From positions 1 through 55,643 of the forward strand of contig JAGGXZ010000168.1 in the NCBI GenBank assembly GCA_021162805.1: 55,643 nucleotides of DNA, in the 5' to 3' direction. Numbering within the stretch: the stretch's first letter is position 1; each line of letters starts with the position of its first letter. A model generated the notes under the pieces. The model did no database searches and was not told the DNA's origin. It was given only the letters and a program-made list of their open reading frames with translations. The position numbers and the translations under genes are program-made. The stretch comes from Candidatus Poribacteria bacterium. GTDB taxonomy: Bacteria; Poribacteria; WGA-4E; B28-G17. Positions 166 to 44,220 of the stretch are shown here, one piece after another.

Positions 166-1377
166 TCAGACGGTTACCGGTATCCTCTCAAATCTGATGT
201 ATTCGGGCAGCGGGTCTCCGATGAGCGGAAGGGCGTATTCATAGAATTTCTCCGTGACGAAGTTGCCCTCCTCGTTGATGAACTCGTCGGGGACCTTCTT
301 CTCGGCGTTGGCGACATAATCCAGATCTACGGTGCCGGTGGTGCATCTATACGGATGGTTCGACTCGCGCACCAGCGAGACCATCTTATCGGTGACGCCC
401 TCCACGGCCAGCTCCACCGCCTTGGCGCCCGCCATATACGCCTCCTCCAGATCGGTCCGGGAGGCCAGGAGTATGGAGGAACGTTGGATCGTGCCGGGCT
501 TATCGAACCGGGCTTTGATCTTCAGTTCAGTGGCGATCAGATCACATAGATACGCCGCCACTCCTCCCAGCTGTTTGTGTCCGAACTTGTCCACGTCAAC
601 GGCGCGGCCGGAAGCGACGAGATATTCACCCTTTTCGTCCTTCAACCCCTCGCAGACGGTGATCAGACAGTATCCCAGTTTGCTGTAGACCCTATCCACA
701 TCCGCCAGGAATTTCTCCCTGTCAAACACCCTTTCGGGCAGATAGATGAGATGTGGGGCGCTATCCTCGGAATCCCTGGCCAAAGCGGTCGAGGCGGTGA
801 TCCATCCGGCGTTACGGCCCATGGTCTCGATGATCTTAACGTTATCCACCACCCCTATCGCCTCGGTGTCCCTGCCGGCATCCTTCGTGGCCATGGCGTT
901 CCATCTGGCGACGGAGCCATACCCTGGACAGTGATCTGTTCCCGCGAGGTCGTTATCCACCGTTTTGGGAACGCCCATGCATCTGAGCTCGTATCCCTCC
1001 TTTTTAGCCAGCTCGCCTACCTTATGAGCGGTGTCCATCGAGTCATTGCCGCCGATGTAGATGAAATATCTGATGTTATATTTCTTAAAGACCTCCAGCA
1101 CCTTGCCGTAGTCCTCCTCCGTGAGCTTATACCTGCATGATCCGAGCGCCGCCGAAGGGGTTCTTTTGAGCCCCTCGATCACCCTCGGGTCCTGTCTGCG
1201 AAGATCTATCAGATCCTCGTTCAGCACGCCCAATATCCCGTGAACCATCCCGTAGATATTTTGAATCTCGTCATGCCTAAACGCCTCCTGGATAACTCCG
1301 CAGAGGCTGCTGTTTATGACGGCGGTCGGGCCACCTGATTGGCCGACGATGAGATTGCCTTTAAGTTTCCCCGCCAT
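166..1377 (-). CDS. pfp: 6-phosphofructokinase, pyrophosphate-dependent type
   Basis: 403 residues. The N-terminus has the PFK phosphate-binding motif GQSGGPTAVIN (residues about 13-23). The loop GGNDS (about 109-113) has Asp where ATP-dependent enzymes have Gly, and the substrate motif reads GVPKTVDND (about 135-143) with Lys where ATP enzymes usually have Gly. Both changes are family markers of PPi-dependent PFK, which interconverts fructose 6-phosphate and fructose 1,6-bisphosphate using PPi in the cytoplasm. The start has GAGGGG three bases before ATG. It is co-directional with two aldolase genes upstream. Phosphoryl donor is inferred from these residues, not measured; a sedoheptulose or deoxygluconate-type substrate cannot be excluded. 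Confidence 0.9.
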   Translation of the reverse strand: MAGKLKGNLIVGQSGGPTAVINSSLCGVIQEAFRHDEIQNIYGMVHGILGVLNEDLIDLRRQDPRVIEGLKRTPSAALGSCRYKLTEEDYGKVLEVFKKYNIRYFIYIGGNDSMDTAHKVGELAKKEGYELRCMGVPKTVDNDLAGTDHCPGYGSVARWNAMATKDAGRDTEAIGVVDNVKIIETMGRNAGWITASTALARDSEDSAPHLIYLPERVFDREKFLADVDRVYSKLGYCLITVCEGLKDEKGEYLVASGRAVDVDKFGHKQLGGVAAYLCDLIATELKIKARFDKPGTIQRSSILLASRTDLEEAYMAGAKAVELAVEGVTDKMVSLVRESNHPYRCTTGTVDLDYVANAEKKVPDEFINEEGNFVTEKFYEYALPLIGDPLPEYIRFERIPVTV

Positions 1378-1437
1378 TTTCCCCTCCTCACTATCATCAA
1401 TTGTTTTAGGTCTAGCCGTGATGAGAGAAATCGCCTC

Positions 1438-2472
1438 TCAGAGATATCTTCTCAGGCGATCCATATCTCTACCTCTGTTTTCCATAAGGCACTCGATCGC
1501 CTGATCCAGGTCGTAACCCTTATGAACGATTCCATTTACCGCCAGAGCCACCGCCAGAGGGTCATCGTCGCCGGGATGGTGGACGTTTCTCCCCACCAGA
1601 GCTCCTCTCACGTTCGGTCCGGCCTTCATTCCGTTGACGAACTCCTCCAAGACGGGGGTCGGATCTCCCCTGGATGCCCCGCCGAGCATGAGGATCGGCA
1701 GCGTCGTCGCCCTTGCGACGATCTCAAAGTTCTCACAATATGGGATCTTCAGCCAGGTGTAGGCTGAGGAGACCCCCAGGGCCGAAGCCACCCCGACGAC
1801 CTTGGCCAATTCCTCGGCCCTCTTGATCGATTTATACCCCTCCTCCGTCTTTTCGACCCAGAGCGCCTCAACGAAGGCGTAAAGCCCATACTCCAGACAC
1901 TCGTTTACCGCCTGAGCGCAGTACATGATGGTTTTCCCCGAATCGGGCGAGTTCGGATCGAGCCTGAACATCATCTTCGCTCCGTCCAACCTCATATCGG
2001 CGATCATCTCGGCGGAGTAAGCGGTGAATCGATCATCCATTTCGAATACCGTCCCGCTCAATCCCCCTCTGTTCATGCAGCCGAGGATCACCTTATCGTC
2101 GAGAAATCCCTCTCCGCCTGCCTCCTTGATCAGATAGTTGACTATGAAGAGCTCCTCGATGATATCGGGCGTGCCCATCACACCGTCGAACTCCTCACTC
2201 GTGATGACCCTGAGGATACGCCCCAGGTACGAGTGGCGGTTTGCCATGGCGATCGGATCGTCACCCGATTTCGTGACGTTCCGGGCCGGGTGATCGCAGG
2301 CCAAAATGGTGAGCTTCCCGTCCCTGGTCAGGGTCTCACGCCTTTTGCGAGCCTGCGCCTCCTGATAGATCACATCGGGCGAGTTCACCCTCACCTCCAC
2401 TATCCTTGAGAAGAGCTCCCAGGGAAAGAACTCCTCGACGTTAAACCTGTAATCCCCTATAGAGTATCTCAT
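1438..2472 (-). CDS. Cgl0159-like (beta/alpha)8 aldolase-family protein
   Basis: 344 residues, cytoplasmic, no signal peptide. It looks like the DeoC/LacD-type aldolase superfamily group typified by Cgl0159, found in actinobacterial inositol-catabolism regions. Visible markers are ILACDHPARN (about 56-65), an interior run with KMMFRLDP, and the phosphate-binding-like stretch LMLGGASRGDP (about 262-272). The gene has AAAGGGGGGA before its ATG and follows the class II aldolase by 14 bases. Next to iolB, a role in cleaving the phosphorylated deoxy-ketogluconate intermediate of inositol breakdown is plausible. That is inference from context; the exact substrate is not shown by the sequence. Confidence 0.7.
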   Translation of the reverse strand: MRYSIGDYRFNVEEFFPWELFSRIVEVRVNSPDVIYQEAQARKRRETLTRDGKLTILACDHPARNVTKSGDDPIAMANRHSYLGRILRVITSEEFDGVMGTPDIIEELFIVNYLIKEAGGEGFLDDKVILGCMNRGGLSGTVFEMDDRFTAYSAEMIADMRLDGAKMMFRLDPNSPDSGKTIMYCAQAVNECLEYGLYAFVEALWVEKTEEGYKSIKRAEELAKVVGVASALGVSSAYTWLKIPYCENFEIVARATTLPILMLGGASRGDPTPVLEEFVNGMKAGPNVRGALVGRNVHHPGDDDPLAVALAVNGIVHKGYDLDQAIECLMENRGRDMDRLRRYL

Positions 2473-4395: not shown

Positions 4396-5076
4396 TTAAG
4401 TTTTCTCTCCTACAACCTGATGATAGAAATAGACAAATATCTTCTCATAGTATCCTTTGCCCACTCCTCTTATCCTTCTTATTTCCCTGAACCTTGTAAC
4501 TGGCAGTTTCTTAACGACTTCACATAAAACATCACCTCTTATTCCGATGTCACTTTGAACTTTGGTTCTATATGCTATATCCTCTTTTATTTTATTGAAC
4601 AGCTTAATCATTCTATCCTCTACGCCCCAGGGTTTAGGTTTCTCATCTAGGCATATAAAAACTTCTATATCTAAGGAGACTAGATATTTTTCCATAACCG
4701 GTTTTACAACGCTCCAATCCAACCCACCGTTTCGACAGCCAAGCTTTGGAAAAGCAATTGAACGGATGTTCATCCTATGATAGTTTTGGGCGAAATACCT
4801 TAATCCTTCTTCTATCCATTCAATCCTAGAGGGATACCTCCAATGATATTTAGTTGGAAAGTTCAGAATCCATGGCTTTAACTCGTTAAAGAGATAAGGT
4901 CTACCCGGCTTCACCATATTTTGCTTACACCGCTTCCGGTAATCCCTAAACATCTCAGGATAACGCAGTTTAAACTCCAACGCTAAGCCCGCTCCCATAA
5001 CCCCTTTACAGTTAACCGTATTAACGATCACCTGCGTATCCATATCAAACACGGTATAGTCGCTGTATTTTATCAT
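4396..5076 (-). CDS. darG: DarG-type macrodomain antitoxin (DNA ADP-ribosyl glycohydrolase)
   Basis: 226 residues. The N-terminal macrodomain shows NTVNCKGVMGAGLA (about 19-32), NFPTKYHWRYPS (about 72-83) with the Lys that is catalytic in DarG, and FPKLGCRNGGLDW (about 109-121). DarG reverses ADP-ribosylation of thymidine in single-stranded DNA made by DarT. The C-terminal approximately 75 residues are a helical tail of unknown role, possibly toxin binding. It overlaps darT by 4 bases (ATGA), the usual coupling for this pair. The stretch 4.4-5.7 kb is visibly richer in A+T than its neighbours, suggesting recent acquisition. Confidence 0.9.
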   Translation of the reverse strand: MIKYSDYTVFDMDTQVIVNTVNCKGVMGAGLALEFKLRYPEMFRDYRKRCKQNMVKPGRPYLFNELKPWILNFPTKYHWRYPSRIEWIEEGLRYFAQNYHRMNIRSIAFPKLGCRNGGLDWSVVKPVMEKYLVSLDIEVFICLDEKPKPWGVEDRMIKLFNKIKEDIAYRTKVQSDIGIRGDVLCEVVKKLPVTRFREIRRIRGVGKGYYEKIFVYFYHQVVGEKT

Positions 5077-5708
5077 GGGAAATAAAACCCCTTTTTCACC
5101 TCAGCAATTATCTTCTGCCCGGAACTCCGAACAATCTCTTCAACCTTAGCTCTCGCTTCGTCCGAATACACGAATATCCTTTCAATAAGGTTAACATTCA
5201 CCTTTCGAGGGACAAGAACTTCTGCGCATTTTATCCTTTTACCATCCTCAAAGTTCGTCCAGTATTTAGAGTTAATGATGTCCCACTGAAGCTTAGAAAG
5301 ATTTCCAACGTCCTGATAGAACCTTGTCCTCTCCGAAGCAGCATTTCCATCCGAGAATATAACACCGGGTTTACCTATTATCGAAGAATCTACAGCAATT
5401 ATGGCTATCTGATCCTGGTATTCACGTCTTTTATACAACATTGGGTTACGTGGAGAGAAATAAAATGGAACATAATCATACAGTGATACTATGAGATCTC
5501 TGTCTTTTATTCTTAAAACGAACCTTTTCGCTTCCCTTCGAGCTTGGACCTTATAGTTTGATATGTTCCAAAAGCTTACACCGATTTTACCTAGCTCATT
5601 CCTTGAAAGCAATCCCAGCTTCAGTATTGAGTCCAAGTTTCGAATAAGCGATAGATGGTATATATGCTCACCCACGTATCTGGTTATAAATTCTTCGATC
5701 TCCTTCAC
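5073..5708 (-). CDS. darT: DarT toxin, DNA ADP-ribosyltransferase
   Basis: 211 residues. DarT features visible: HLSLIRNLDSILKLGLLSR near residues 18-36 (NAD-pocket H and N), an Arg-rich KVQARREAKR (53-62), YVPFYFSPRNPML (79-91), FSDGNAASERTRFY (118-131) and the catalytic Glu in CAEVLVP (E163). The enzyme family uses NAD+ to ADP-ribosylate thymidine on single-stranded DNA. The start codon overlaps the stop of the upstream TPR lipoprotein gene by 4 bases, and its own stop overlaps darG by 4. So the toxin is translationally coupled to a cell-envelope protein gene and not run from an obvious promoter of its own. AT-rich compared with its neighbours. Confidence 0.9.
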   Translation of the reverse strand: MKEIEEFITRYVGEHIYHLSLIRNLDSILKLGLLSRNELGKIGVSFWNISNYKVQARREAKRFVLRIKDRDLIVSLYDYVPFYFSPRNPMLYKRREYQDQIAIIAVDSSIIGKPGVIFSDGNAASERTRFYQDVGNLSKLQWDIINSKYWTNFEDGKRIKCAEVLVPRKVNVNLIERIFVYSDEARAKVEEIVRSSGQKIIAEVKKGFYFP

Positions 5709-24233: not shown

Positions 24234-24680
24234 TTAAGAGGTCTCTTCATCCAATAGTTCTCCCAGGTATTTTCTCACTTCGTCGACTAGCCTTCCGTAT
24301 AAAGCTTCAGATTGGAGGATGAATCTTCTGATCGAGTTCCATTTGACATCAAGGTATTCATGTGCTATCACGTTTCTCAACCTTACATATCTAGCGAGTT
24401 CCTCAGTATTTCGCTTGTCGAATCCCTCCACTGAACCGAGAAGGAAGACGATTGCCCTATAAGTTTGAGGCACTTCAATCCCTTCCAGGGATAGGATAAG
24501 CTTGGCGATGTCGATCGAGGAATTCACCAGGTTTTCCACCCATCTCTCTACTTCCCTTCGTTTGCTACGGTTAGTGCTATACTCTTCCCATGATAGTGAC
24601 TCGAACAGAGGATAATCGCTGAGTTCCTCCTCCAGGAATCTAAGGTGTCTTATTAATCTCTCTTTCAGCTCTTCTCTCAT
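24234..24680 (-). CDS. hepT: HepT-like toxin of the HepT/MntA system (HEPN RNase, DUF86)
   Basis: 148 residues. The HEPN catalytic signature R-x4-H-x-Y is present as RNVIAHEYLD (about 104-113). HepT cleaves RNA and is silenced when MntA adds AMP units to the conserved Tyr in this motif. ATG is preceded by GGAGAGATTAAGGT. It lies downstream of, and overlaps by 41 bases, the mntA gene, the reverse of the most frequent order but a known arrangement. Confidence 0.85.
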   Translation of the reverse strand: MREELKERLIRHLRFLEEELSDYPLFESLSWEEYSTNRSKRREVERWVENLVNSSIDIAKLILSLEGIEVPQTYRAIVFLLGSVEGFDKRNTEELARYVRLRNVIAHEYLDVKWNSIRRFILQSEALYGRLVDEVRKYLGELLDEETS

Positions 24681-25092
24681 ACCTTAATCTCTCCAAGAAA
24701 TCCCTCTTCATCATCTCCCTGAAATCGATGGCTTCGGAGGTTACCACCAGCATGAAATCGACATATAACCCCGGATCATTGATGAGTATGGGTATCCCCC
24801 TTATAGCGCTATCCGCTACCGTAGCGGGGGCTCTGTTCAGAACCAGCAGTTCCACCTCTCTATTCAGCAGTTCCTCCAGATCCGACCAGATCTCCTCTTC
24901 ACCCTCGTAGTAGATCTCCTCCTCGAACTCTATCGGCCTGCGCCTCTTCGGATAGAAATACACCGCCACATCCACATCTGATCTCGGTGTAGCAGTTCCT
25001 TTAGCCTGGGAGCCGAACAGAAAGGCGAAAGCCACATCATTCCTTTTCCCGAAATATCCCTTTAATTGATCGATGAGGAACAGATCACACAT
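24640..25092 (-). CDS. mntA: MntA-like nucleotidyltransferase antitoxin
   Basis: 150 residues. The minimal nucleotidyltransferase motif GS-x10-D-x-D is exact: GSQAKGTATPRSDVD (about 27-41), with VAVYFYPKRRRPIEF following. It is the AMP-adding antitoxin for HepT. The Shine-Dalgarno before the ATG at 25092 is weak, so translation may be coupled to or driven by elements near the ppdK hairpin, and no clear promoter is seen. It overlaps hepT by 41 bases. Confidence 0.85.
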   Translation of the reverse strand: MCDLFLIDQLKGYFGKRNDVAFAFLFGSQAKGTATPRSDVDVAVYFYPKRRRPIEFEEEIYYEGEEEIWSDLEELLNREVELLVLNRAPATVADSAIRGIPILINDPGLYVDFMLVVTSEAIDFREMMKRDFLERLRYERRAEREINKTP

Positions 25093-25184: not shown

Positions 25185-27878
25185 CTATTCTTTCGCCTGC
25201 TTCTCCCTGATGGCCGCCTGTGCGGCAGCCAGCCTTGCTATGGGCACGCGATACGGCGAGCAGCTCACGTAATCCATCCCCACCTTATGGCAGAACTCGA
25301 TCGAGTCGGGATCGCCGCCGTGCTCGCCGCAGATACCGATCTCGAGATCCGGCTTGGTTGAACGCCCCTTCTTAACTCCGATCTCCACGAGTTGTCCCAC
25401 ACCGACCTGATCCAGCGACTGGAACGGGTCTTTCTCATAGATGCCGCTTTCGACGTAGAAGCCGAGAAATTTGCCGGCGTCGTCCCTGCTCATTCCGAGC
25501 CCCATCTGGGTGAGGTCGTTGGTTCCGAATGAGAAGAAGTCCGCCACCTCGGCGATCTCATCGGCCGTCAAGGCGGCTCTGGGCACCTCGATCATGGTTC
25601 CGACCATGTAGTCGAACTTCACGCCGCTCTCACGCATGACCTCCTCGGCGACCCTGTCGACTATTTCTTTTTGCATCTGGAGCTCCTTGACGTTACCCAC
25701 GAGCGGTATCATCACCTCGGGTATGACCTTGATCCCGCGCTTTGCCACCTCGGCGGCGGCCTCAAATATGGCTCTAGCCTGCATCTCGGTCACCTCCGGA
25801 TAGGAGACGCCGAGACGACATCCTCTGAAGCCGAGCATCGGATTGAACTCATGGAGTCTCTCGACCGTTTCGAGCACCTCCTCTAGTTCTCTGAGCTTAG
25901 CGAGTTTCTCGTCCATATCGGAGAGCGTGCTGGAGTTTGCAAGCTCGAACTTCAACTCGGCTATCTGCTGGAGGAGCTCCTCTCGTCTGGGCAGGAACTC
26001 GTGAAGCGGCGGATCGAGGGTACGGATGATGACCGGCAGACCGTCCATGACCTCAAATATGCCGATGAAATCCTCCCTCTGATAGGGCAGGAGTTTGGCA
26101 AGCGCCTCCCTTCTACCCTCCGCATCCTTGGCCATGATCATCTCGCGCATGGCGATGATCCTATCGCCCTCGAAGAACATGTGCTCGGTACGACATAGCC
26201 CTATCCCTTCGGCGCCGAATTCCCTGGCGACCTTGGCGTCCTTAGGGGTATCGGCGTTCGTCCGGACGCCGAGACGGCGGAACTCATCGGCCCACTTCAT
26301 CAGCGTCTCGAAATCGCCGCTTATCCGGGGCTCAACCAGGGGAGCCTTTCCGAGGATAACCTCGCCGGTTGTGCCGTTTATGGTGATGTAATCGCCCTCT
26401 TTGACGACGATATCGCCTACTCTGAAGGTGCGGGCGCCTTCATCGACCAGAACCTCACCGGCCCCGGCGACACAGGGTTTTCCCATACCTCTGGCCACCA
26501 CGGCAGCGTGGCTGGTCATCCCGCCGCGCGAGGTCAAAATCCCCTGAGCCGCGTGCATCCCGCCTATATCCTCCGGCGAGGTCTCAGGCCTGACCAAAAG
26601 CACCTCCTCGCCGTTTGAGGCCCATTCCTCGGCCGTTTTGGCGTCGAAGACCACTTTTCCGACGGCCGCCCCTGGAGAAGCCGGAAGGCCTTTGGCTATC
26701 ACCTCGACCTCAGCGTTGGGATCTATCATCGGATGTAGCACCTGATCCAGGGCCATCGGATCAACCCTGAGAAGGGCCGTCTCCCTATCTATCAGGCCCT
26801 CTCTCACCATATCGACGGCGATCTTGATGGCAGCCGCCCCCGTGCGCTTGCCGGTTCTGGTCTGAAGGAGGAAGAGCTTGCCGTTTTGAATCGTGAACTC
26901 GATATCCTGCATGTCCTTGTAATGCCTCTCCAGCGTCTCGCACACCCGCATCAACTGCTCGTGGACCTCCGGCATGACCTCCTTAAGCTCCTCCACCGGT
27001 CGAGGGGTTCGGATTCCGGCGACCACATCCTCGCCCTGGGCGTTGATGAGGAACTCGCCCATGACCTTCTTCTCGCCGGTAGCCGGATCACGCGTGAAGG
27101 CGACGCCTGTGCCGGAATCGTCGCCCATGTTGCCGAAGACCATCGTCTGGACGTTGACAGCCGTGCCCAAATCGTCGGGTATGTTGTGGATCTTCCTGTA
27201 GATGATCGCCCTCTCGTTGTTCCACGATTCAAAGACGGCGTTGATGGCCATCCAAAGCTGTTCCTGAGGATCTTCGGGGAAATCCCTGCCGGTTTCATCC
27301 TTGATCAGCTTTTTGAACTTGCCGACCAGATCCTTCCAGTCCTCGGCGTCCAGATCGGTATCGAATCTGACGCCCTTCTCTTCTTTCTTCTGATCTATAA
27401 GCTCCTCGAATTTGGAGTGTGGTATGCCCAACACGACGTTTCCGAACATCTGGACGAACCTTCGATAGGCGTCATAGGCGAACCTGGGGTTGTTGGACTT
27501 TTTAATCAATCCCTGGACGGTATCATCGTTGAGGCCCAGGTTCAGGATCGTATCCATCATGCCGGGCATCGAGATCGGGGCTCCTGAGCGAACGGAGACA
27601 AGGAGCGGATTTTCGGGGTCTCCGAACTTGGCCCCCATGATCTGTTCAACCTTACGAAGGTTTTCCTCAACCTGTTCCTTAAGACCTTCCGGATATCGCT
27701 TGTTATTTTCGTAATAAAGCTTACAAACCTCGGTGGTGATGGTGAAGCCGGGCGGGACGGGGATTCCGATGTTGGTCATCTCAGCGAGTCCGGCGCCCTT
27801 TCCTCCAAGAAGATCCCTCATCTTAGCGTTGCCTTCAGCCTTCCCACGGCCGAAGAAGTATACGTACTTCGCTGCCAT
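25185..27878 (-). CDS. ppdK: Pyruvate, phosphate dikinase
   Basis: 897 residues, full length. N-terminal ATP-grasp with [19 protein letters not shown] (about 96-114), the catalytic His in [15 protein letters not shown] (about 454-468), and the C-terminal PEP domain with [17 protein letters not shown] (about 771-787) and CGEHGGDP (about 833-840). Interconverts pyruvate + ATP + Pi and PEP + AMP + PPi. Transcribed alone. GGAGGAAG lies close to the ATG. With a PPi-type PFK in the same window, it points to PPi-linked glycolysis. Confidence 0.94.
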
Positions 27879-28250: not shown

Positions 28251-29609
28251 TCAGAAGGAATACATCCCCTTACTGGCTTCCTCGTAGACGGGATCAAGCG
28301 GGTCGGTTGAAAGGTAAAGCTGCTGGCATGGCTCATAAAGCTGTATGTAGCTCCAATTGACCCCGCACAGTATCTTCTGTTCGTTGGCGAGTTTGACGAA
28401 CTGTCCCCTGAACTTCGCCCTTGTTGTTTCAGGGGGATTACGCATAGCGTGTTCTATCGCCTCATCGGTGGCGATTCGCTCGACCCTTCCTTCTCTCTCG
28501 AGGATATAGTATAGGCCGACCTTGCGTCTGATGTTGTGATATTGCAGGTCGAGCATGTGAACCCTAGCGTCATCCCATCTTATCCTACGTCTATTCACGT
28601 AGGTCTCTATCATCCGTTTCTTTATCACCCAGTCGATCTCCCTGTCCAACTGCATCGGATCCTCGGCTATTTTGTCGAGTACGTAGGTCCATTTCTTGAG
28701 CACATCCTTGCTGACGGGATCGATCTCCTCCGTCTCGAAGTATCTATGGGCCGCCTCGAGGTAATATCTCTGTATCTCCACAGGGGTGAGTCTCTTGCCG
28801 CTTTCCAGCTCGATCGTCTTCTTACAGCTCAGATCCTCGGAGATCTGCTGTATCGCCTTGACCGAATCGTAAAGCGCCATTCGCTTGTCTAGGAATCCAT
28901 CCTCGATCATCATCAACACGATATGCGTGGTGCCAACTTTCAGATAGTTGGTAAATTCCGACATGTTCGAATCTCCCACGATCACGTGGAGTCTGCGGTA
29001 TTTCTCCCTATCGGCATGTGGTTCATCCCTCGTGTTGATTATCCCTCTGGCAGTGGTGGTGGCTATCGAGATATCCTCACGAATGTATTGAGCCCGCTGT
29101 GAGATGGCATATCCGCCCCTGATGCTGCTTTTGACCTTGCCTGCGCCCGTGTAGATCTGCCTCGTGACGAAGAACGGGATAAGCTGAGTGGCGAGCTGCC
29201 GGAGGCTGACATGTCTGTCCATCAGGTAATTTTCGTGACAGCCATAGGTGTTTCCGCGCGAATCGGTGTTGTTCTTGAATATGGATATCTTATGGTTAAA
29301 TCCATCCCTTTGCAGGGCCCTTTCGGCCCTTATCATCAGCTCCTCCACGATCCGCTCGCCGGCCTTATCGTGGACCACCAGGTCATAGACGTTATCACAC
29401 TCCGGCGTAGCATATTCCGGATGACATCCAATATCCTGATAGAACCGAGCTCCGTTCTCCAGGAAGACGTCCGGATACATCCTGCCGGAAGTTATCCCCT
29501 TAAAGAGATAGGTCACGGCATTCTGCACCGGAAGAGGCCTGCCGCCCTTGTTGAGCGGCATGCAGACGATGCCGTATTCGCTTTCGAGACCGAATATCCG
29601 CCGTTTCAT
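28251..29609 (-). CDS. pafA: Pup-protein ligase PafA
   Basis: 452 residues, the length of known PafA. The glutamine-synthetase-like fold is marked by the opening RRIFGLESEYGIVC, ENGARFYQDIGCHPEYATPECD (about 51-72) with the catalytic Asp, FKNNTDSRGNTYGCHENYLMD (about 110-130) and the tail VNWSYIQLY. The DIG...HPEYATPEC form distinguishes it from Dop. It ligates the C-terminal Glu of Pup to lysines of target proteins using ATP. The ATG overlaps the prcA stop (ATGA). Last gene of the operon. Confidence 0.93.
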   Translation of the reverse strand: MKRRIFGLESEYGIVCMPLNKGGRPLPVQNAVTYLFKGITSGRMYPDVFLENGARFYQDIGCHPEYATPECDNVYDLVVHDKAGERIVEELMIRAERALQRDGFNHKISIFKNNTDSRGNTYGCHENYLMDRHVSLRQLATQLIPFFVTRQIYTGAGKVKSSIRGGYAISQRAQYIREDISIATTTARGIINTRDEPHADREKYRRLHVIVGDSNMSEFTNYLKVGTTHIVLMMIEDGFLDKRMALYDSVKAIQQISEDLSCKKTIELESGKRLTPVEIQRYYLEAAHRYFETEEIDPVSKDVLKKWTYVLDKIAEDPMQLDREIDWVIKKRMIETYVNRRRIRWDDARVHMLDLQYHNIRRKVGLYYILEREGRVERIATDEAIEHAMRNPPETTRAKFRGQFVKLANEQKILCGVNWSYIQLYEPCQQLYLSTDPLDPVYEEASKGMYSF

Positions 29610-30289
29610 GATAAAATCTCAGCCACCTTTCCCTTTGGAATTCTCTTGAATTTCCTCCTCTCCTTGTTCCTATCCAAAACGGCGACCTCCAGGTTATCGC
29701 AGGTCAGCTTCTTATCGTTCTCTATGCTCTCGATCCCTTTGACGGCCAGCTTTATCGCCTCCTCCAGGGGCATCCCCTCCTCGTAGATCCCCTGGATGAA
29801 TTTCCTTATCTCCTCGGCATGGCCGCCTATGGAGGCTATCTTGCGTTCATCCCAGACGCTCCCGTCGAAGGAGATGTGAAAGATCTGGTTCTCCTCCGGC
29901 GTATCGCCGACCTCAGCTAGCAGTAACTCCACCTCAAGCGGCTTAGTGTCGATCTGTCTGAAGACGGTTCCGATCTGCTGGGAGTAAAGGGTGGCCAGCC
30001 ATTTGGCGTTGACATCCTCCCTGCTGTAGGCGTATCCTTTGATCTCGCACTGATAGATCCCCGTGGTTCTCAGCGGCTCTATCTCCGGATACATTCCCAC
30101 GGCAGCCAGGGCTATCCTGTCATATATCTCGTGGATCTTGTTCAACGTAGCGCTTAGGTTCTCGGCCACGAAAACGATGCCATCTATATATTCCAGCGCC
30201 ACGACGTCCTTGCCCTTGGCGATCCCCTTTCTGGCATAGTTGGCCTTGTCAGCCATCACCTGTTCGGGGGAAACGTAGAACTGTGGCAT
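29606..30289 (-). CDS. prcA: 20S proteasome alpha subunit PrcA
   Basis: 227 residues. The actinobacterial PrcA start pattern is visible: F-Y-V-S-P-E-Q-V-M-A-D-K-A-N-Y-A-R-K-G-I-A (residues 4-24), which includes the gate segment. There is no N-terminal Thr nucleophile, as expected for the non-catalytic ring. The subunit forms the outer rings that the Mpa C-terminus docks into. It starts 4 bases after prcB ends and overlaps pafA by 4. Confidence 0.92.
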   Translation of the reverse strand: MPQFYVSPEQVMADKANYARKGIAKGKDVVALEYIDGIVFVAENLSATLNKIHEIYDRIALAAVGMYPEIEPLRTTGIYQCEIKGYAYSREDVNAKWLATLYSQQIGTVFRQIDTKPLEVELLLAEVGDTPEENQIFHISFDGSVWDERKIASIGGHAEEIRKFIQGIYEEGMPLEEAIKLAVKGIESIENDKKLTCDNLEVAVLDRNKERRKFKRIPKGKVAEILS

Positions 30290-30293
30290 GCCA

Positions 30294-31148
30294 TCAACCT
30301 CTCTGCTTTCCTTTGAGCTTTTCCATCAATTCATCGAACAATCCGGCCACCTCATCATCCTTCAGGCTTTTGGTGCCCTCCTGGGTTATCAGCTTGAGGG
30401 TAGGATAGATACCCCTGATGAAGTCCGGTCCTCCAGTCGCTATATCCTCATCGGCCGCGTCCCATAGGGCCTCAACGGCCACCCTTAAAGCCGAGTCTCT
30501 GTCCATATCGGGTCTATAGAGCTTCTTCATGGTAGCGCGAGCGTCCTTGCCGCCTGATCCGATCGCGTAGTACTCCGTCTCCTCATATCTTCCGCCGGTG
30601 AGGTCGTATTTGAATATCCTCCCCTCCTTACGTTTGAGATCGTATCCGGCGAATATGGGTATGACCACCAATCCCTGCATCGCAGCCTGGAGATTCGACC
30701 TGATCAGCGTTGAGAGGAAGTTGGCCTTGCCCTCGAGGCTCAGGGGGGTACCCTCCATCTTCTCGTGATACTCGACCTGAACTTGGAAGATCTTTGCGAT
30801 CTCGATACAGGGTCCTGCGATTCCGGCTATGGCTATGGCGGAGTATTCGTCCACCGAGAAGACCTTTTCGATCCTGCGCTCCCCCACCTGATATCCCTCC
30901 ACCGCCCTTCGGTCGCCGCCTATCACCACACCGTCCTCATATTTCAGGGCCAGGATGGTGGTTCCGAGGAGCACCCCCTCTTTGTCTGGGAGGCGCCTGA
31001 GGGTTTTATGTGTTAGCGATTCAGTCCCAGGTAATGGAGAGCCGAAAGCAGGCCACAAATGAGGATGGTAACGCATCAGCATTTCGAGGAAGTCTGAGCT
31101 TTTAGGCTCCCACAGATCATTCGCCGCCGCGTTGTATGTAGTTTTCAA
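30294..31148 (-). CDS. prcB: 20S proteasome beta subunit PrcB
   Basis: 284 residues from a TTG at 31148 that I favour because GGAGG lies 6 bases upstream; an ATG at 31181 is the alternative. Homology to PrcB propeptides (SSDFLEMLMRYHPHLWPAF) begins before the first internal ATG (31082), so the start must lie inside the pup coding region. The propeptide is about 62 residues, ending at Gly before the catalytic Thr in LLGTTILALKYEDG. Other marks: VIGGDRRAVEG and YAIGSGGKDARATM. This is the catalytic ring subunit. Overlaps pup by 32 bases. Confidence 0.92.
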   Translation of the reverse strand: MKTTYNAAANDLWEPKSSDFLEMLMRYHPHLWPAFGSPLPGTESLTHKTLRRLPDKEGVLLGTTILALKYEDGVVIGGDRRAVEGYQVGERRIEKVFSVDEYSAIAIAGIAGPCIEIAKIFQVQVEYHEKMEGTPLSLEGKANFLSTLIRSNLQAAMQGLVVIPIFAGYDLKRKEGRIFKYDLTGGRYEETEYYAIGSGGKDARATMKKLYRPDMDRDSALRVAVEALWDAADEDIATGGPDFIRGIYPTLKLITQEGTKSLKDDEVAGLFDELMEKLKGKQRG

Positions 31149-31314
31149 TGAACTCCTCCGAATCCTCCTCAAGGATTTCATCTATCTCGTCCAGAAGCCT
31201 GTCCAGGTCATCTTTGATATCCTGGGCCCCCTTATCGGCTTCCGGCTCCTGACGCTCCTCCCTCTTCTCCTCTTCTCTCTTTTTGTATGTCTGCTTTCTC
31301 TCCTTGGAAGGCAT
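31117..31314 (-). CDS. pup: Prokaryotic ubiquitin-like protein Pup
   Basis: 65 residues from the ATG at 31314; GGGGGTG is upstream. It is highly charged and disordered in the N-terminal half, with a coiled-coil segment (DDLDRLLDEIDEILEED, about 37-53) that binds the Mpa coiled coil, and it ends in YIQRGGE. Actinobacterial Pup usually ends in GGQ and must be deamidated by Dop; this one already ends in Glu and can be ligated directly by PafA. It lies between dop (12 bases upstream) and prcB. Confidence 0.95.
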   Translation of the reverse strand: MPSKERKQTYKKREEEKREERQEPEADKGAQDIKDDLDRLLDEIDEILEEDSEEFIENYIQRGGE

Positions 31315-31326
31315 ATTCACACCCCC

Positions 31327-32820
31327 TCATTTAGACAGCTCATCAAAGAATTTTATCAATTCATCGGCGGTTTTGCAACCGTCCAGTATCTCACCCACCA
31401 ACTCCTTCGTCCCCCTGCACGGGTCCTGCATGTAGATCTTATTCAAGGACGAGGATGAATTGAGCTCGAAGACCATTGAATTCCAACTGACGCTGTGAAT
31501 CTGCTGCGAATACTTTTTCAGACACATACCTCTGAAATAGGCCCTTGTGCTTTCGGGCGGGTCGGTGACGGCGCTGAACGCCTCACCTGGGTTGAGGATC
31601 CTCTCAACCTGTCCGTTTTTGGCCAACCTGTAGTACAATCCTTTTTCAGGATCGACGTCGTGATACTGAAGATCCAACATCAGAACTCTGTGATCTGACC
31701 AATCGAGATTGAACCTTCTCATGTAAGCCTCTATCAGTCGTTTCTTGATGACCCAGTCTATATGCCTGTCCAACTGCATCGGGTCCTCTTCGAGTTTATC
31801 GAGCACGAACTCCCATTTATCAAGAATATCCTTGGCGATCGGATCGACTGTCAAGGATAGATGTTTGACGGCGAGGTTCAGGTATTCCCTCTGAATCTGT
31901 ATGGGGGTCCAGCTTCCTCCTTTCAGCATGTTTATACGGCCTTTGCAGTTCAGATCCCTGGAGACCGATTTGATCGCCTTCACAGGGTTCATGAGCTTAA
32001 ACCTGTCTTTGATCATCCCCATCTCTATGAGCGTCAGAACCAAAGCGGTGGTGCCCACCTTAAGATATGTGGTGAATTCGGACATATTGGCATCGCCGAC
32101 TATGACATGTAGCCTTCTGAACCTCTTCTCGTCGGCGTGAGGCTCGTCGCGGGTGTTGATGATCGGGCGATCGACCATGGTGCTGAGCCCCACCTCCGAC
32201 TCGAAGAAGTCGGCCCGCTGTGAGATCTGATAGACCGCCGGGTCGCTGCCGTTCTCATACCCAACCTTCCCGCTGCCGGTGAATATCTGCCTCGTGACCA
32301 GGAATGGGGTCAGACCGTCCACGATCTCCTGAAAATCCACCGATCTATCCATCAAATAGTTCTCATGGCATCCATAACTATGCCCCTTGTGGTCGCTGTT
32401 GTTCTTGTGGATTATTATTCTGGTGTCCTTTCCCAGAACATCCTCCGATATCCGACGGGAGATGTTGAGGATGATCTCTCCGGCCTTATCGTATTTCACC
32501 AGCTCTCTGGCGTCCAGGCATTCCGGAGTACAGTATTCGGGATGGGCGTGATCGACGTAATATCTTCCGCCGTTTATCAGGATGTCGTTTATCACCCGAT
32601 TGCTCTCCTCATCGGGATTCTGCACCGTCTCATCGGTTGTGAACCCTCTGGCGTCAGAAGTGGGGGATTCCTGATCGTAATCCCACAGGACCTTATTCCT
32701 CTCCCTATCCCTGTAGCTGTTGACGACGAGGGTGGAAGCCGTGACAGGATCCCTGTCAACCGCCCCCTTCACGCTTATCCCATATTCCGTTTCGACACCC
32801 ATCACCTTGGGAACCGGCAT
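31327..32820 (-). CDS. dop: Deamidase/depupylase Dop
   Basis: 497 residues, longer than PafA as usual. Dop features: PKVMGVETEYGISVKG at the start, the region with DQESPTSDARGFTTDE (about 48-63, Dop loop), NGGRYYVDHAHPEYCTPECL (catalytic Asp in DHAHPEY) and HKNNSDHKGHSYGCHENYLMD. Since Pup ends in GGE, its needed activity is depupylation, not deamidation. Follows the ATPase by 25 bases and precedes pup by 12. Confidence 0.93.
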   Translation of the reverse strand: MPVPKVMGVETEYGISVKGAVDRDPVTASTLVVNSYRDRERNKVLWDYDQESPTSDARGFTTDETVQNPDEESNRVINDILINGGRYYVDHAHPEYCTPECLDARELVKYDKAGEIILNISRRISEDVLGKDTRIIIHKNNSDHKGHSYGCHENYLMDRSVDFQEIVDGLTPFLVTRQIFTGSGKVGYENGSDPAVYQISQRADFFESEVGLSTMVDRPIINTRDEPHADEKRFRRLHVIVGDANMSEFTTYLKVGTTALVLTLIEMGMIKDRFKLMNPVKAIKSVSRDLNCKGRINMLKGGSWTPIQIQREYLNLAVKHLSLTVDPIAKDILDKWEFVLDKLEEDPMQLDRHIDWVIKKRLIEAYMRRFNLDWSDHRVLMLDLQYHDVDPEKGLYYRLAKNGQVERILNPGEAFSAVTDPPESTRAYFRGMCLKKYSQQIHSVSWNSMVFELNSSSSLNKIYMQDPCRGTKELVGEILDGCKTADELIKFFDELSK

Positions 32821-32845
32821 CTGCTATTCCCTCCAAAGGTTAGGA

Positions 32846-34603
32846 TTACAGATATTGCCCCGTCCCGACGATCCTGTAATCTTTTTTCTTCTCCTCTTTA
32901 TCGAACAGCGTTCTGACGCTGACGATCCTTTCGCTTTTACGGCCGGAAATCTTGGCCCAGTCATCCGGATTGGCGGTATTGGGCAGGTCCTCGTTCTCCT
33001 TGAACTCCTCGCGGATCGCCTTCTCGATGTCCTCGAACCTTATCCCCTTTTCCTCCTCGCCCTGGATGTATCTCTTGAGGGCGTGCTTTTTAGCCCTTGA
33101 GACGATATTGGCGATCATAGCTCCGCTGACGAAATCCTTGAAGTAGAGGATTTCCCTTTCGCCGTGGGCGTAAGTCACCTCGAGGAATTTGTTCTCGTCG
33201 GTCTCGGCATACATGATTTCAACCGCCCTTTCGATCATGCTCCTGATGGCAGCGTTTATATCCCCTCCGGCCGCTTCTATCTCGGATTGTGCGATCGGCA
33301 GATCGGGCTTCAGGTATTTGGAGAATATATCCTTCGCTCCTTCCTCATCCGGACGGTCGATCTTGATCTTGATATCCAGCCTACCAGGGCGGAGTATAGC
33401 GGGGTCGAGCAGGTCCTGCCTGTTGCTGGCCCCTATGACGATGACGTTTCTGACCCCTTCCACGCCGTCGATCTCTGCCAGGAACTGGGGGACGATGGTC
33501 GACTCCATGTCGGATGAGATGCCCAAGCCCCTCATTCTAAACAGCGAATCCATCTCGTCGAAGAATATGACCACCGGCATGCCCTCTTGAGCCTTCTCCT
33601 TCGCTCTCTGGAAGATCTCCCTGATCTTACGTTCAGTTTCGCCGACGTATTTGTTCAGCAGCTCAGGTCCTTTGATGTTGATAAAATACCCCTTTATGTC
33701 CTGGTTGCCGGTTATCTCGCGGGCTTTCTTGGCGAGGCTGTTGGCCACTGCCTTGGCTATAAGGGTTTTACCGCATCCGGGTGGTCCGTAAAGTAGAATC
33801 CCCTTAGGGGGTGTCAGTCCGAACTCCTTATACTCCTCCGGATAGACGTAGGGCAACTCTATGGCATCACGGATCTGCTCGATCTGTTTGTCCAGCCCGC
33901 CTATATCATCGTATGTTATATCCGGCACCTCTTCCAGAAGCAGATCCTTCACCTCTGCTTTGGGCAGCTTTTCCATCACCAATCCGGTCTGAAGGTTGAC
34001 CAGCACGGTGTCGCCGTATCTGAACTCCTCCTCCTTGACCGTTTCAGCCAGCTCGACCACTCTTTCCTCATCCGCCCTGTAGTTGACTATAACCCTTTTC
34101 TCGTCCAGTCTCTCCTTCACCTTCACCACTTCACCCTGTCCGTCGAACTGACGAACCCCCACGACGTTATATTCGGAATTGACGATGACCTCCTGGCCTT
34201 TACGGAGTTTCGTCACGTCTATCGACGGATCTACGTTAACCCTCCATTTTCTCCCACCCAAGTCGACGTCTACCGTTCCGTCGTCATTTGCGTTCAGAAA
34301 AACGGCGTAATTGTTGGGCGGAGCGGTGAGTTTGTCGACCCTTTCCTTCAGGATTTCTATCTGTTCCCTCACATCGCGCAGGGCGTCCGTAAGTTTTCGG
34401 TTACGCCTATGCGCGTTTATCAGCTCACGCGTGGTTTCATACAGCCTCAGCTCGATCTCCTCAGAATGGGCCGAGTTAAGCTTACGTCTTAAATTGGCCA
34501 CCTCGTTTTCAAGCGACTCCATGTAATTTTCAAGCCGTCTTATCTGTTCCTCATACTTGGCCACCAACTCGGCCTGAGGACCTATCTGCCGGACCTCTTC
34601 CAT
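32846..34603 (-). CDS. mpa: Proteasome-associated AAA+ ATPase (Mpa/ARC)
   Basis: 585 residues. N-terminal coiled coil (about 12-95), tandem OB domains (about 96-210), then an AAA domain with Walker A GPPGCGKT (273-280), Walker B IFFDEMD (346-352) and an Arg finger region after [15 protein letters not shown]. The protein ends in GTGQYL; the QYL tail is the Hb-Y-X-type docking motif of Mpa to the PrcA ring. Unfolds pupylated substrates. It starts 29 bases after the TPR lipoprotein gene and leads the proteasome genes. Confidence 0.95.
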
Positions 34604-34632
34604 CGGCTATCATCCTTTCTTTATTCGGTTTA

Positions 34633-36006
34633 TTAGCCTCCCCGGCTGCTGAGCTTGCTTACCTTAGCCTCAAGGGCCTCCACACGCATTCGGTAGTTCA
34701 TCCAGGTCTTCAGTTGTTTGATCTGGGAGGCCAGCTCCGAGTCGGGGGACACTAATTTCTCCGCCTGCTTTATGTGATCGAACACCTGAATCTTGTTATA
34801 AAGCGACGTCCTGTCGTTTGAGAAGGCCCTGGCGTCGGCGTAGAAGTAAGCCAGGTAGATATGAGCCTCCGGCGTCGGATAGTAGCTGAGCGACTCATGA
34901 AGCAGGACGTTGCTGAATCCAGGAGCGCCGGCGTTATAGAAGGCCCTTCCGAGCTCGGCTAACCTCTTGGCCGCTACTTTGCGACATTTCAGGGCTGCAT
35001 CGGTGTTCGGGTATCTCTCCAGAAGCTCATTCCACGTCTCCATCGCCTTGCCATAGCAGGGAGGCAGGAAGTCCGTATATCGCCACTCCCTCAGATCGCG
35101 ATATCTGCTCAGGAGGAATCGCACTTCGAGGTAGTAGTTATCATACCTCATGCCCCTGCCGTAGAACTTCTCGTATCCCCTGCTCGGATATCCGGCGGGC
35201 CAATGGGGGCTGAGCCCGATCTTGCGTAGATCCATCTCCCCGAGCTGCGGGTACCTGTCGAGGATGTAGTAATACCTGACGAACGCCGCCAGCTTCCTGG
35301 TGTCCACCTTGGGTGGGGACTCGTACTTGGCCATGCGCCAGTAGCTCTCGCCTAACATCATCATCGCATCATCGGCCAACTCGCTCTTCGGGAACCTCTC
35401 GGTCAGTTCCTTGAACCTTTCGGCTGCCACATCGGGAAGGTTTAACTCCTCGAGGTAGATTCTGCCGATCTCGAAGAGGGCGTTATCTCTATGCGACTCC
35501 ACACCCTCTCTGACCTCACTTTCCAGCTTGACTATCCTTGCCATCAGATCGAGGTTTCTCCTGGCCTCGCGCGCCTCGTCGTTGTTGAGATAGGGATACT
35601 TTCTGACAAGAGACCTATAGATCTCCCTCGCTTTTTTCACCTCGTTGAGGGCGAGGTAACAATCGCCGATCAGGAGTTTCGCCCTATCGGCCAGCTCGCT
35701 TTTGGAGTTCACCTTCTCATAGGCCTTGATAGCGGCCTTGTAATCTCCCTTGAGCCTATAGCTGTTGCCTATTTCGAACTGAGCGTTGTCCGCCTGATCG
35801 CTCTGCGGGTATTTGTCCAGGAGCTTCTGAAACTCGGCTATCGCCCTATCGTAGTCCTGCTCCTCCTGGAAACAAGAGGCGTTTTCCAGGATCATATCGA
35901 TTTCTTTCTGCGGAGAGACTGCGCCCTTAGGTAAGCAGCCGGGGATTAAAAAGATCAGTGTGAGGGATAGAATCAAGGGAGATACAACCTTTAACCTGAA
36001 TCTCAT
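34633..36006 (-). CDS. TPR-repeat lipoprotein (BamD/tol-pal-like organisation)
   Basis: 457 residues from the ATG at 36006 (AGGTGA upstream; a GTG at 36015 is possible). Lipoprotein signal MRFRLKVVSPLILSLTLIFLIPGC, lipobox IPGC. Then several YfiO/TPR units, including FQKLLDKYPQSDQADNAQFEIG, AKLLIGDCYLALNEVKKAREIY and FKELTERFPKSELADDAMM. Such proteins act in outer-membrane assembly or as envelope scaffolds. It heads the proteasome operon, 29 bases before mpa, on a near-consensus promoter. A direct role in the proteasome pathway is unproven. Confidence 0.8.
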   Translation of the reverse strand: MRFRLKVVSPLILSLTLIFLIPGCLPKGAVSPQKEIDMILENASCFQEEQDYDRAIAEFQKLLDKYPQSDQADNAQFEIGNSYRLKGDYKAAIKAYEKVNSKSELADRAKLLIGDCYLALNEVKKAREIYRSLVRKYPYLNNDEAREARRNLDLMARIVKLESEVREGVESHRDNALFEIGRIYLEELNLPDVAAERFKELTERFPKSELADDAMMMLGESYWRMAKYESPPKVDTRKLAAFVRYYYILDRYPQLGEMDLRKIGLSPHWPAGYPSRGYEKFYGRGMRYDNYYLEVRFLLSRYRDLREWRYTDFLPPCYGKAMETWNELLERYPNTDAALKCRKVAAKRLAELGRAFYNAGAPGFSNVLLHESLSYYPTPEAHIYLAYFYADARAFSNDRTSLYNKIQVFDHIKQAEKLVSPDSELASQIKQLKTWMNYRMRVEALEAKVSKLSSRGG

Positions 36007-43288: not shown

Positions 43289-43795
43289 ATGGAGAGGAGA
43301 AAGGTTCAAGATGAGGTAAATCGACTCCTGCATAAGCTCGTAGAGGCGCTAAAGGAGAGGTTTGGTGAGGAACTGGTATCGGTGGTGCTGTTTGGCTCAT
43401 TTGCACGGGGGGATTTCCACGAGAGGTCTGACATCGACCTGTTGATAGTTATAGAGAAGCTCCCTCAATCGCAGTTTAAAAGATCGAGGCTTTTCGACGA
43501 AGCCGCGGGGAGGCTTATGGATGGATTCAAGCTTCTTCGTGAAATGGGCTATCTGTGTCAGTTTATGCCCATAATGAAAAGCAGGGAGGAGGCCGCTTAT
43601 CATTCGCCGATCTATCTTGACATGGTTGAGGAAGGGATGATCCTTTATGACAAAGGGGGGTTTTTCAGATCGGTGTTGGAGGAGATAAGGCAAAGGTTGA
43701 AAGAGCTGGGGGCGAAAAGGAAGTTCCTCAAAGGCGGGGGATGGTATTGGGACCTTAAACCGGACTATAGGCCCGGAGAGGTGATCGAAATATGA
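43289..43795 (+). CDS. Nucleotidyltransferase-domain protein of an NTase/HEPN pair
   Basis: 168 residues. GS-x10-D-x-D motif: GSFARGDFHERSDIDLL (about 36-52), the MNT fold. C-terminal region with a DKGGFFRSVLEEIRQRL helix. It overlaps the HEPN gene by 4 bases (ATGA). In these pairs the NTase can AMPylate the HEPN partner. GAGGAAGAG precedes the ATG. It is not closely similar to the MntA at 24.6 kb. Confidence 0.8.
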   Translation: MERRKVQDEVNRLLHKLVEALKERFGEELVSVVLFGSFARGDFHERSDIDLLIVIEKLPQSQFKRSRLFDEAAGRLMDGFKLLREMGYLCQFMPIMKSREEAAYHSPIYLDMVEEGMILYDKGGFFRSVLEEIRQRLKELGAKRKFLKGGGWYWDLKPDYRPGEVIEI

Positions 43796-44220
43796 GAAAC
43801 GACAGGATGGCGATCGGTTACCTCGAGGACGCCACCGTGAGGGTGGGGGAGTTGAAGCGGCTTTTCGAGATGAAGCGGTTTAATGTGGTGATCAGAGAAG
43901 CACAGGAAGGGGTTGAGCTGGCGCTCAAGGCGGCCTTGAGATGGGTGGGGGTGGAGCCTGCTAAAGTTCATGACGTGTCCGAGATACTGTTAGGGGAGCA
44001 GGATAGATTTCCCCGCTTTTTCAGGGATGAGATAGTCAGACTGGCGGAAATTTCCAGAAAGCTTGCCAGGGAGAGGGGAAGAAGCTTCTACGGCGATGAG
44101 GAGGGAGGGGTTCCCGCTTCTGAACTCTACTCGGACTCGGATGCCCTTGAGGCGATCGACGATGCCCAATTCGTGCTTCAGCTTTGTAGGGGACTTATCA
44201 GTTCAAAACCTGGCGGATAA
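43792..44220 (+). CDS. HEPN-domain protein partner
   Basis: 142 residues. A helical HEPN fold with EAQEGVELALKAALRWVG (about 38-55) and the tail ERGRSFYGDEE...PASELYSDSDALEAIDDAQF. The catalytic R-x4-6-H motif of RNase HEPN proteins is not visible, unlike HepT at 24.2 kb. That is usual for this subgroup, which may bind nucleotides or RNA without cleaving. Overlaps the NTase by 4 bases. Confidence 0.75.
   Translation: MRNDRMAIGYLEDATVRVGELKRLFEMKRFNVVIREAQEGVELALKAALRWVGVEPAKVHDVSEILLGEQDRFPRFFRDEIVRLAEISRKLARERGRSFYGDEEGGVPASELYSDSDALEAIDDAQFVLQLCRGLISSKPGG

Follow-up and report, generated by a model that had tools for sequence, protein, structure and literature searches.

A complete Pup-proteasome operon in a Candidatus Poribacteria genome, very probably canonical and old in its class

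The Pup-proteasome system considered here lies in a 55,643-nucleotide stretch of DNA (contig JAGGXZ010000168.1 of assembly GCA_021162805.1; hereafter the window) from a Candidatus Poribacteria genome of 4.35 Mb in 232 contigs, which is 95% complete. On the minus strand, from position 34603 to position 28251, six open reading frames stand in the order ARC/Mpa-Dop-Pup-PrcB-PrcA-PafA, and the best-matching curated family of each frame is its own one. An earlier note, made from the sequence alone, had described seven adjacent frames at this place, these six and a lipoprotein gene, and had read them as a complete Pup-proteasome system in a less studied, non-actinobacterial phylum. All seven frames are present on the minus strand, all six Pup-proteasome proteins match curated family models, and the phylum is Poribacteria. 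The six genes, with their model scores and cut-offs, are the following.

32846..34603, minus strand: ARC/Mpa proteasomal AAA+ ATPase, 585 amino acids, with coiled coil, OB, and AAA domains; TIGR03689, 744.9 bits (cut-off 504.75)
31327..32820, minus strand: Dop depupylase/deamidase, 497 amino acids, with Dop-loop; TIGR03688, 568.1 bits (cut-off 492.3)
31117..31314, minus strand: Pup, 65 amino acids from the ATG at 31314, ending RGGE; PF05639, 61.4 bits (cut-off 27); TIGR03687, 45.4 bits (cut-off 41.45)
30294..31181, minus strand: PrcB proteasome beta subunit, longest frame of 295 amino acids with propeptide; TIGR03690, 295.3 bits (cut-off 191.9)
30294..30962, minus strand: mature PrcB from the catalytic Thr1 (TTILALKY); residue 74 of the longest frame aligns with residue 1 of the mature beta subunit 1q5q_H
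29606..30289, minus strand: PrcA proteasome alpha subunit, 227 amino acids; TIGR03691, 280.2 bits (cut-off 139.05); 1q5q_A, 180 bits
28251..29609, minus strand: PafA Pup ligase, 452 amino acids; TIGR03686, 525.6 bits; PF03136, 523 bits (cut-off 25)

Residues 28 to 571 of the window ARC align with Mycobacterium Mpa, and both the P-loop (GPPGCGKT) and the C-terminal docking tail (GQYL) are present; the frame ends GTGQYL, in agreement with the QYL ending noticed earlier. Dop (residues 5 to 490) and PafA (residues 2 to 445) align with the Dop structure 4b0r and the PafA structure 4b0t, respectively, and the Dop-loop is present in Dop and missing from PafA; the two are separate paralogues. All eight active-site columns, including the catalytic Asp, are intact in both proteins, and neither has lost any of the metal ligands described for Dop of Acidothermus (Glu8, Glu10, Tyr92, Glu99, His155, and His241; PMC8599861). 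The prcB gene overlaps the 3' end of pup and its start codon is uncertain; the internal ATGs come after SDFLEML, a conserved motif of the propeptide. The remaining genes are separated by 25 bases (ARC-Dop), 12 bases (Dop to the probable ATG of Pup), and 4 bases (PrcB-PrcA), and prcA and pafA overlap by 4 bases. Given these short spacings and overlaps, the six genes look like one translationally coupled operon. Gene content, gene order, tight coupling, and intact catalytic residues are all read directly from the window.

The window Pup reads ...DEIDEILEEDSEEFIENYIQRGGE and has the C terminus GGE, with GAA as its last codon; the frame ends ...ENYIQRGGE-stop, in agreement with the GGE end given in the earlier note. 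The start is most likely the ATG at 31314 (65 amino acids; a Shine-Dalgarno-like GAGGGGG precedes it closely) and not the GTG at 31320. UBact is the name for a Pup analogue known from certain Gram-negative bacteria, and it does occur in other Poribacteria, but the chance that the window modifier is UBact and not Pup is negligible, because it matches PF05639 and TIGR03687, whereas the UBact models PF20513 and NF033388 match a second poribacterial cluster instead. A UBact identity for this protein was tried and rejected; there was no such match in NCBIfam even at E values up to 10, and none in Pfam.

The biochemical course of the window system is taken, step by step, from its homologues. Pup would be made ready for use with its C-terminal Glu, which PafA would phosphorylate with ATP and link to lysines of target proteins. 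Hexamers of ARC would then bind Pup and unfold the target, feeding it through the PrcA gate, where the GQYL tail would dock, into the PrcB chamber, and Dop would cut Pup off again for recycling. The six components, the gene order, the catalytic motifs, the GQYL tail of ARC, and Thr1 of PrcB are common to the window system and that of Mycobacterium and other Actinomycetota. In contrast to the latter, the window system forms a separate deep clade, its pafA overlaps prcA directly and has a dikinase gene downstream, and its genome also carries HslUV; the window Pup ends in Glu, an end that is also common in Actinomycetota. A search of the source genome for BPA/PafE gave no match, but the control likewise matched nowhere, so that this negative carries no information.

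Many species encode PupGlu, and depupylation has then been suggested as the primary function of Dop (2025 review, PMC12288473). By published biochemistry, a Pup that ends in Glu requires no deamidation. The earlier view that Dop would act solely as a depupylase where Pup ends in Glu is accepted for PupGlu species and, by analogy with published biochemistry, would apply to the window Dop. The same note had treated GGE as a special feature, which the wider sample does not bear out: GGE and GGQ alternate within Poribacteria, Actinomycetota, and Myxococcota. The last residue is E in 13 and Q in 18 of 31 poribacterial loci (at least 3 changes), E in 15 and Q in 18 actinobacterial rows (at least 10 changes), and E in 11 and Q in 6 myxococcotal ones (at least 6 changes). 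Over the whole tree, covering all sampled phyla, there are at least 22 switches, always between GAR and CAR codons. Because the residue switches so freely, GGE is no sign of a special history. We searched every column of Dop, PafA, and ARC for correlates of the switch, and none clearly follows it; only two columns, both in Dop, passed a loose prefilter (over 18 independent pairs, column 142 gave 2.7 same and 0 opposite, and column 69 gave 4.4 same and 2.1 opposite).

Pup is present in 78 of the 85 genomes of the phylum and in 54 of the 56 good ones; its carriers span families f1 to f8, every family of the class. All five Pup-less genomes of the poribacterial class still have Pup-ligase genes, and in three of them (G023, G029, and G066) the ligase pair belongs to the second, UBact-type cluster. 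Both Pup and Pup-ligase genes are absent from the two genomes (88 to 91% complete) that represent the other classes of the phylum. Among named genomes, the nearest Dop is that of Candidatus Poribacteria B28_G17 (81% identity), followed by those of other Poribacteria (57 to 65%); further out are one Rokubacteria genome (57%), Myxococcota and similar groups (50 to 54%), and Actinomycetota (46 to 50%). As a separate observation, the phylum of this Rokubacteria genome has Pup in 83 of 95 genomes, with a pup gene that is mostly isolated (L147-L166 and L174); one of its clusters (L019) reads ARC-Dop-PrcB-PrcA-PafA with no Pup alongside. The genome of locus L021 contains a second, very divergent ARC-Dop-Pup-PafA cluster (L171:1500-6500) in which Pup ends QFRQKGGE and PrcBA is not nearby.

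In single-gene trees of ARC, Dop, PrcB, PrcA, and PafA, which contain no loci from Nitrospirota, Verrucomicrobiota, or Armatimonadota, though several of the phyla left unsampled are reported to have such systems, Poribacteria form one clade in each tree and so do Actinomycetota. The five-gene concatenated tree gives both groups 100% support, and the joint Dop/PafA tree, in which the paralogues root each other, places no poribacterial group inside the actinobacterial one. Phylogenies of PrcA, PrcB, PafA, and Mpa against actinobacterial homologues, which the earlier note had proposed, thus find Poribacteria separate from Actinobacteria. A recent transfer of the operon from an actinobacterium would be in line with the published opinion that the pathway arose in Actinobacteria and later spread to other phyla (PMC7947786; PMC5666114). 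However, each of the two groups is a single clade in all five single-gene trees, the joint tree, and the concatenation, and trees constrained to group Poribacteria with any one of three actinobacterial subclades are rejected (p-AU of 6e-5, 1e-5, and 1.4e-5, at a cost of 254 to 266 log units); for the lineages sampled, we therefore consider such a transfer very improbable.

The surroundings of the operon bear on both its age and its integrity. One neighbouring gene serves as a syntenic marker outside the system.

25185..27878, minus strand: pyruvate-phosphate dikinase, downstream of pafA

Downstream of pafA, about 18 further poribacterial loci carry the same dikinase gene (start KYVYFFG...GGKGANLAEM); at the other end, the gene before ARC is recA in L009 and in many family f8 loci. 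The distribution and the trees, both direct observations, together with this dikinase and recA synteny, indicate that the operon is old and has mostly been kept vertically in the class. A chimeric assembly (a refuter named in the earlier note) or contamination at the edges of the operon might be suspected in a metagenome-type assembly of 232 contigs, but the window proteins group with a genome of the same family (Dop, 81% identity; PafA, 87% identity), the adjoining dikinase is the gene that Poribacteria usually have at this place, and GC content is even across the operon edges, so that a chimera or contamination is extremely improbable. The earlier note had offered transfer or ancient retention as alternatives; old presence in the class is favoured, and recent transfer from Actinobacteria is the part that the trees reject.

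How the class first came by the operon is a different matter. We give about even odds to the possibility that the class ancestor took it up once, long ago, from a nonactinobacterial or stem lineage, as against inheritance from the ancestor of the phylum. In its favour, Pup and Pup ligase are absent from the only two genomes of other classes, and the Dop and PafA subtrees disagree in deep branching order, Dop being nearer to Actinomycetota and PafA nearer to Myxococcota and the L021 phylum (support for this is modest). On the other hand, these outgroup genomes are only two, are incomplete, and could equally have lost the genes.

Some points weigh against the view of a canonical and complete system that is old in its class. 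The organism is known solely from an assembly of 232 contigs, a search for expression or biochemical data from any poribacterium found none, and the TIGR03686 score of PafA (525.6) is slightly under the NCBIfam equivalog cut-off of 551.3; that score is far above the 431.2 that the same protein obtains with the Dop model. Taking the evidence together, we hold it very likely that the window encodes a canonical, complete Pup-proteasome system that is old in its class.

Most other Poribacteria carry a second system beside it. At least four Pup-ligase-family genes occur in 68 of the 85 poribacterial genomes, a count in which fragments and duplicate bins may inflate single entries. In the loci that were fetched, the extra ligase-family pair sits in a separate cluster. 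This cluster and the HslUV genes of the source genome are located as follows.

L263:2377-9021 and L264-L278: second cluster, ARC2-Dop2-UBact-PrcB2-PrcA2-PafA2, in most other Poribacteria
L125:3557-5540: HslU and HslV, adjoining, on contig C201 of the source genome

The small protein of the second cluster matches UBact (NF033388, 73.7 bits, cut-off 35; PF20513, 67.5 bits), with the tail RTGE in all 15 cases counted. The UBact-proteasome system (Lehmann et al. 2017, as cited in PMC12751074) has its ATPase, ligase, depupylase, and 20S gene types in common with the window system and differs in its modifier. ARC2, Dop2, and PafA2 form clades of their own, and ARC2 mostly ends in VI, in contrast to the YL or FL of ARC, which suggests that the two ATPases may dock differently. 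Closed chromosomes carry the two clusters on a single contig (for example, G022, of 5,156,246 bases, has the Pup cluster at 0.48 Mb and the UBact cluster at 4.48 Mb), and the co-residence of Pup and UBact is therefore no binning error. The UBact cluster looks decayed or incomplete in family f3, with PafA2 in fragments (L268) or with PrcBA and PafA2 missing near Dop2 (L269), and it was found neither in the window's genome nor in the other member of its family (76% complete). HslV scores above its cut-off in 80 of the 85 poribacterial genomes, including the source genome. An open-literature search, which did not reach the original UBact paper, found no report tying Poribacteria to the Pup-proteasome and no earlier report of co-residence of the Pup and UBact systems.

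A scan of the window's genome for Pup ligases recovered a third such gene, on contig C215, which is fused to an extracytoplasmic function (ECF) sigma factor. It has two relatives in other families.

L228:6658-8634, minus strand: ECF sigma-PafA-like fusion, 658 amino acids, no internal stop, contig C215 of the source genome
L260:106-1944, plus strand: second copy, family f2, likewise with an inactivated ligase part
L262:3-908 and 692-1918, plus strand: third relative, family f6, with an interrupted frame and some active-site residues kept

In L228 the sigma part comprises region 2 (PF04542, 65.4 bits) and region 4 (PF08281, 46.6 bits), and the ligase part (PF03136, 380 bits, residues 236 to 635) is 50% identical to the window PafA. 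L260 keeps region 4 and part of region 2, and the full-length, uninterrupted frame occurs only in the window's own genome. Across the other members of the Pup-ligase family in the tree, which comprise PafA, Dop, and the two enzymes of the UBact type, the eight active-site columns do not vary, except that the highly divergent L171 has Lys in place of Arg. L228, in Dop numbering, has E8G, E10Q, Y92H, D94P, E99Q, H155K, Pro for the Arg of TRDEP, and H241Q. Because the metal ligands and the catalytic Asp are replaced, we do not class it as a ligase. His, Gln, Pro, and Gln at four of these columns are common to L228 and L260, which form one group (100%) within the PafA clade of Poribacteria (99%); L262 is unplaced. 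Of 104 PafA-invariant columns, 64 are kept in both copies and 23 are altered in both, including every catalytic one, and amino-acid-changing divergence between them (pN of 0.28) is far below the saturated synonymous divergence (pS of 0.84). Judged from these sequences, the ligase domain has the pattern of a pseudoenzyme retained for its fold.

We speculate, with some hesitation, that the fusion might regulate transcription by sensing Pup or components of pupylation, and so tune expression to the state of the proteasome system. Its dead ligase domain could bind Pup, PafA substrates, or nucleotide and thereby switch or destabilise the sigma factor; transcription would then answer to Pup, to substrates of pupylation, or to partners of the enzyme. 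In Corynebacterium glutamicum PafA, R201 touches the Pup tail (PMC8599861); the equivalent residue is R187 in the window PafA (alignment read by eye) and Asp in both L228 and L260, so that Pup, if bound by the fusion, would be bound differently at its tail. The fusion, with a large C-terminal domain behind regions 2 and 4, resembles ECF sigma factors that carry a regulatory domain at the C terminus (such as ECF41; PMC3426412), but differs from them in that this domain is an inactivated homologue of the Pup ligase. A review of noncanonical ECFs makes no mention of Pup, the proteasome, or a ligase (PMC8999054), and a text search of the open literature, which does not establish precedence, found no ECF-Pup ligase fusion.

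Upstream of ARC in the window stands the lipoprotein gene that the earlier note had grouped with the Pup-proteasome genes.

34633..36006, minus strand: TPR outer-membrane-type lipoprotein, BamD/YbgF-like; tol_pal_ybgF, 92.7 bits

This grouping finds no conserved link among relatives: a clear homologue lies upstream of ARC in L006 only, with weak matches in L214 and L215. The lipoprotein is probably merely a neighbour of the operon. As a candidate seventh component it was ruled out, recA or other genes being upstream in most relatives. Elsewhere in the window, adjoining genes at 4396-5708 (minus strand) appear by eye to encode a macro-domain protein and a DarT-like partner, a possible DarTG toxin-antitoxin pair, and two small-gene pairs, at 24234-25092 (minus strand) and 43289-44220 (plus strand), appear by eye to encode nucleotidyltransferases with HEPN-type partners.

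The window operon itself is normal, complete, old, and mechanistically ordinary, in an under-studied phylum. According to a 2020 study, Dop and PafA are very sporadic beyond Actinobacteria and Nitrospirae, and the pathway was argued to have originated in Actinobacteria and to have been transferred later (PMC7947786). Here an entire class of a different phylum has retained the complete system with hardly an exception, and the system forms a separate deep clade. Because many members also have the UBact system and nearly all have HslV, three proteasome-type particles can share one cell, and insulation between Pup and UBact becomes testable in closed poribacterial genomes. The switching between GGE and GGQ within one phylum offers natural replicates on the purpose of Dop deamidation. 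The sigma-factor/dead-ligase fusion, if the proposed role is true, would be a direct genetic tie of pupylation to transcription.

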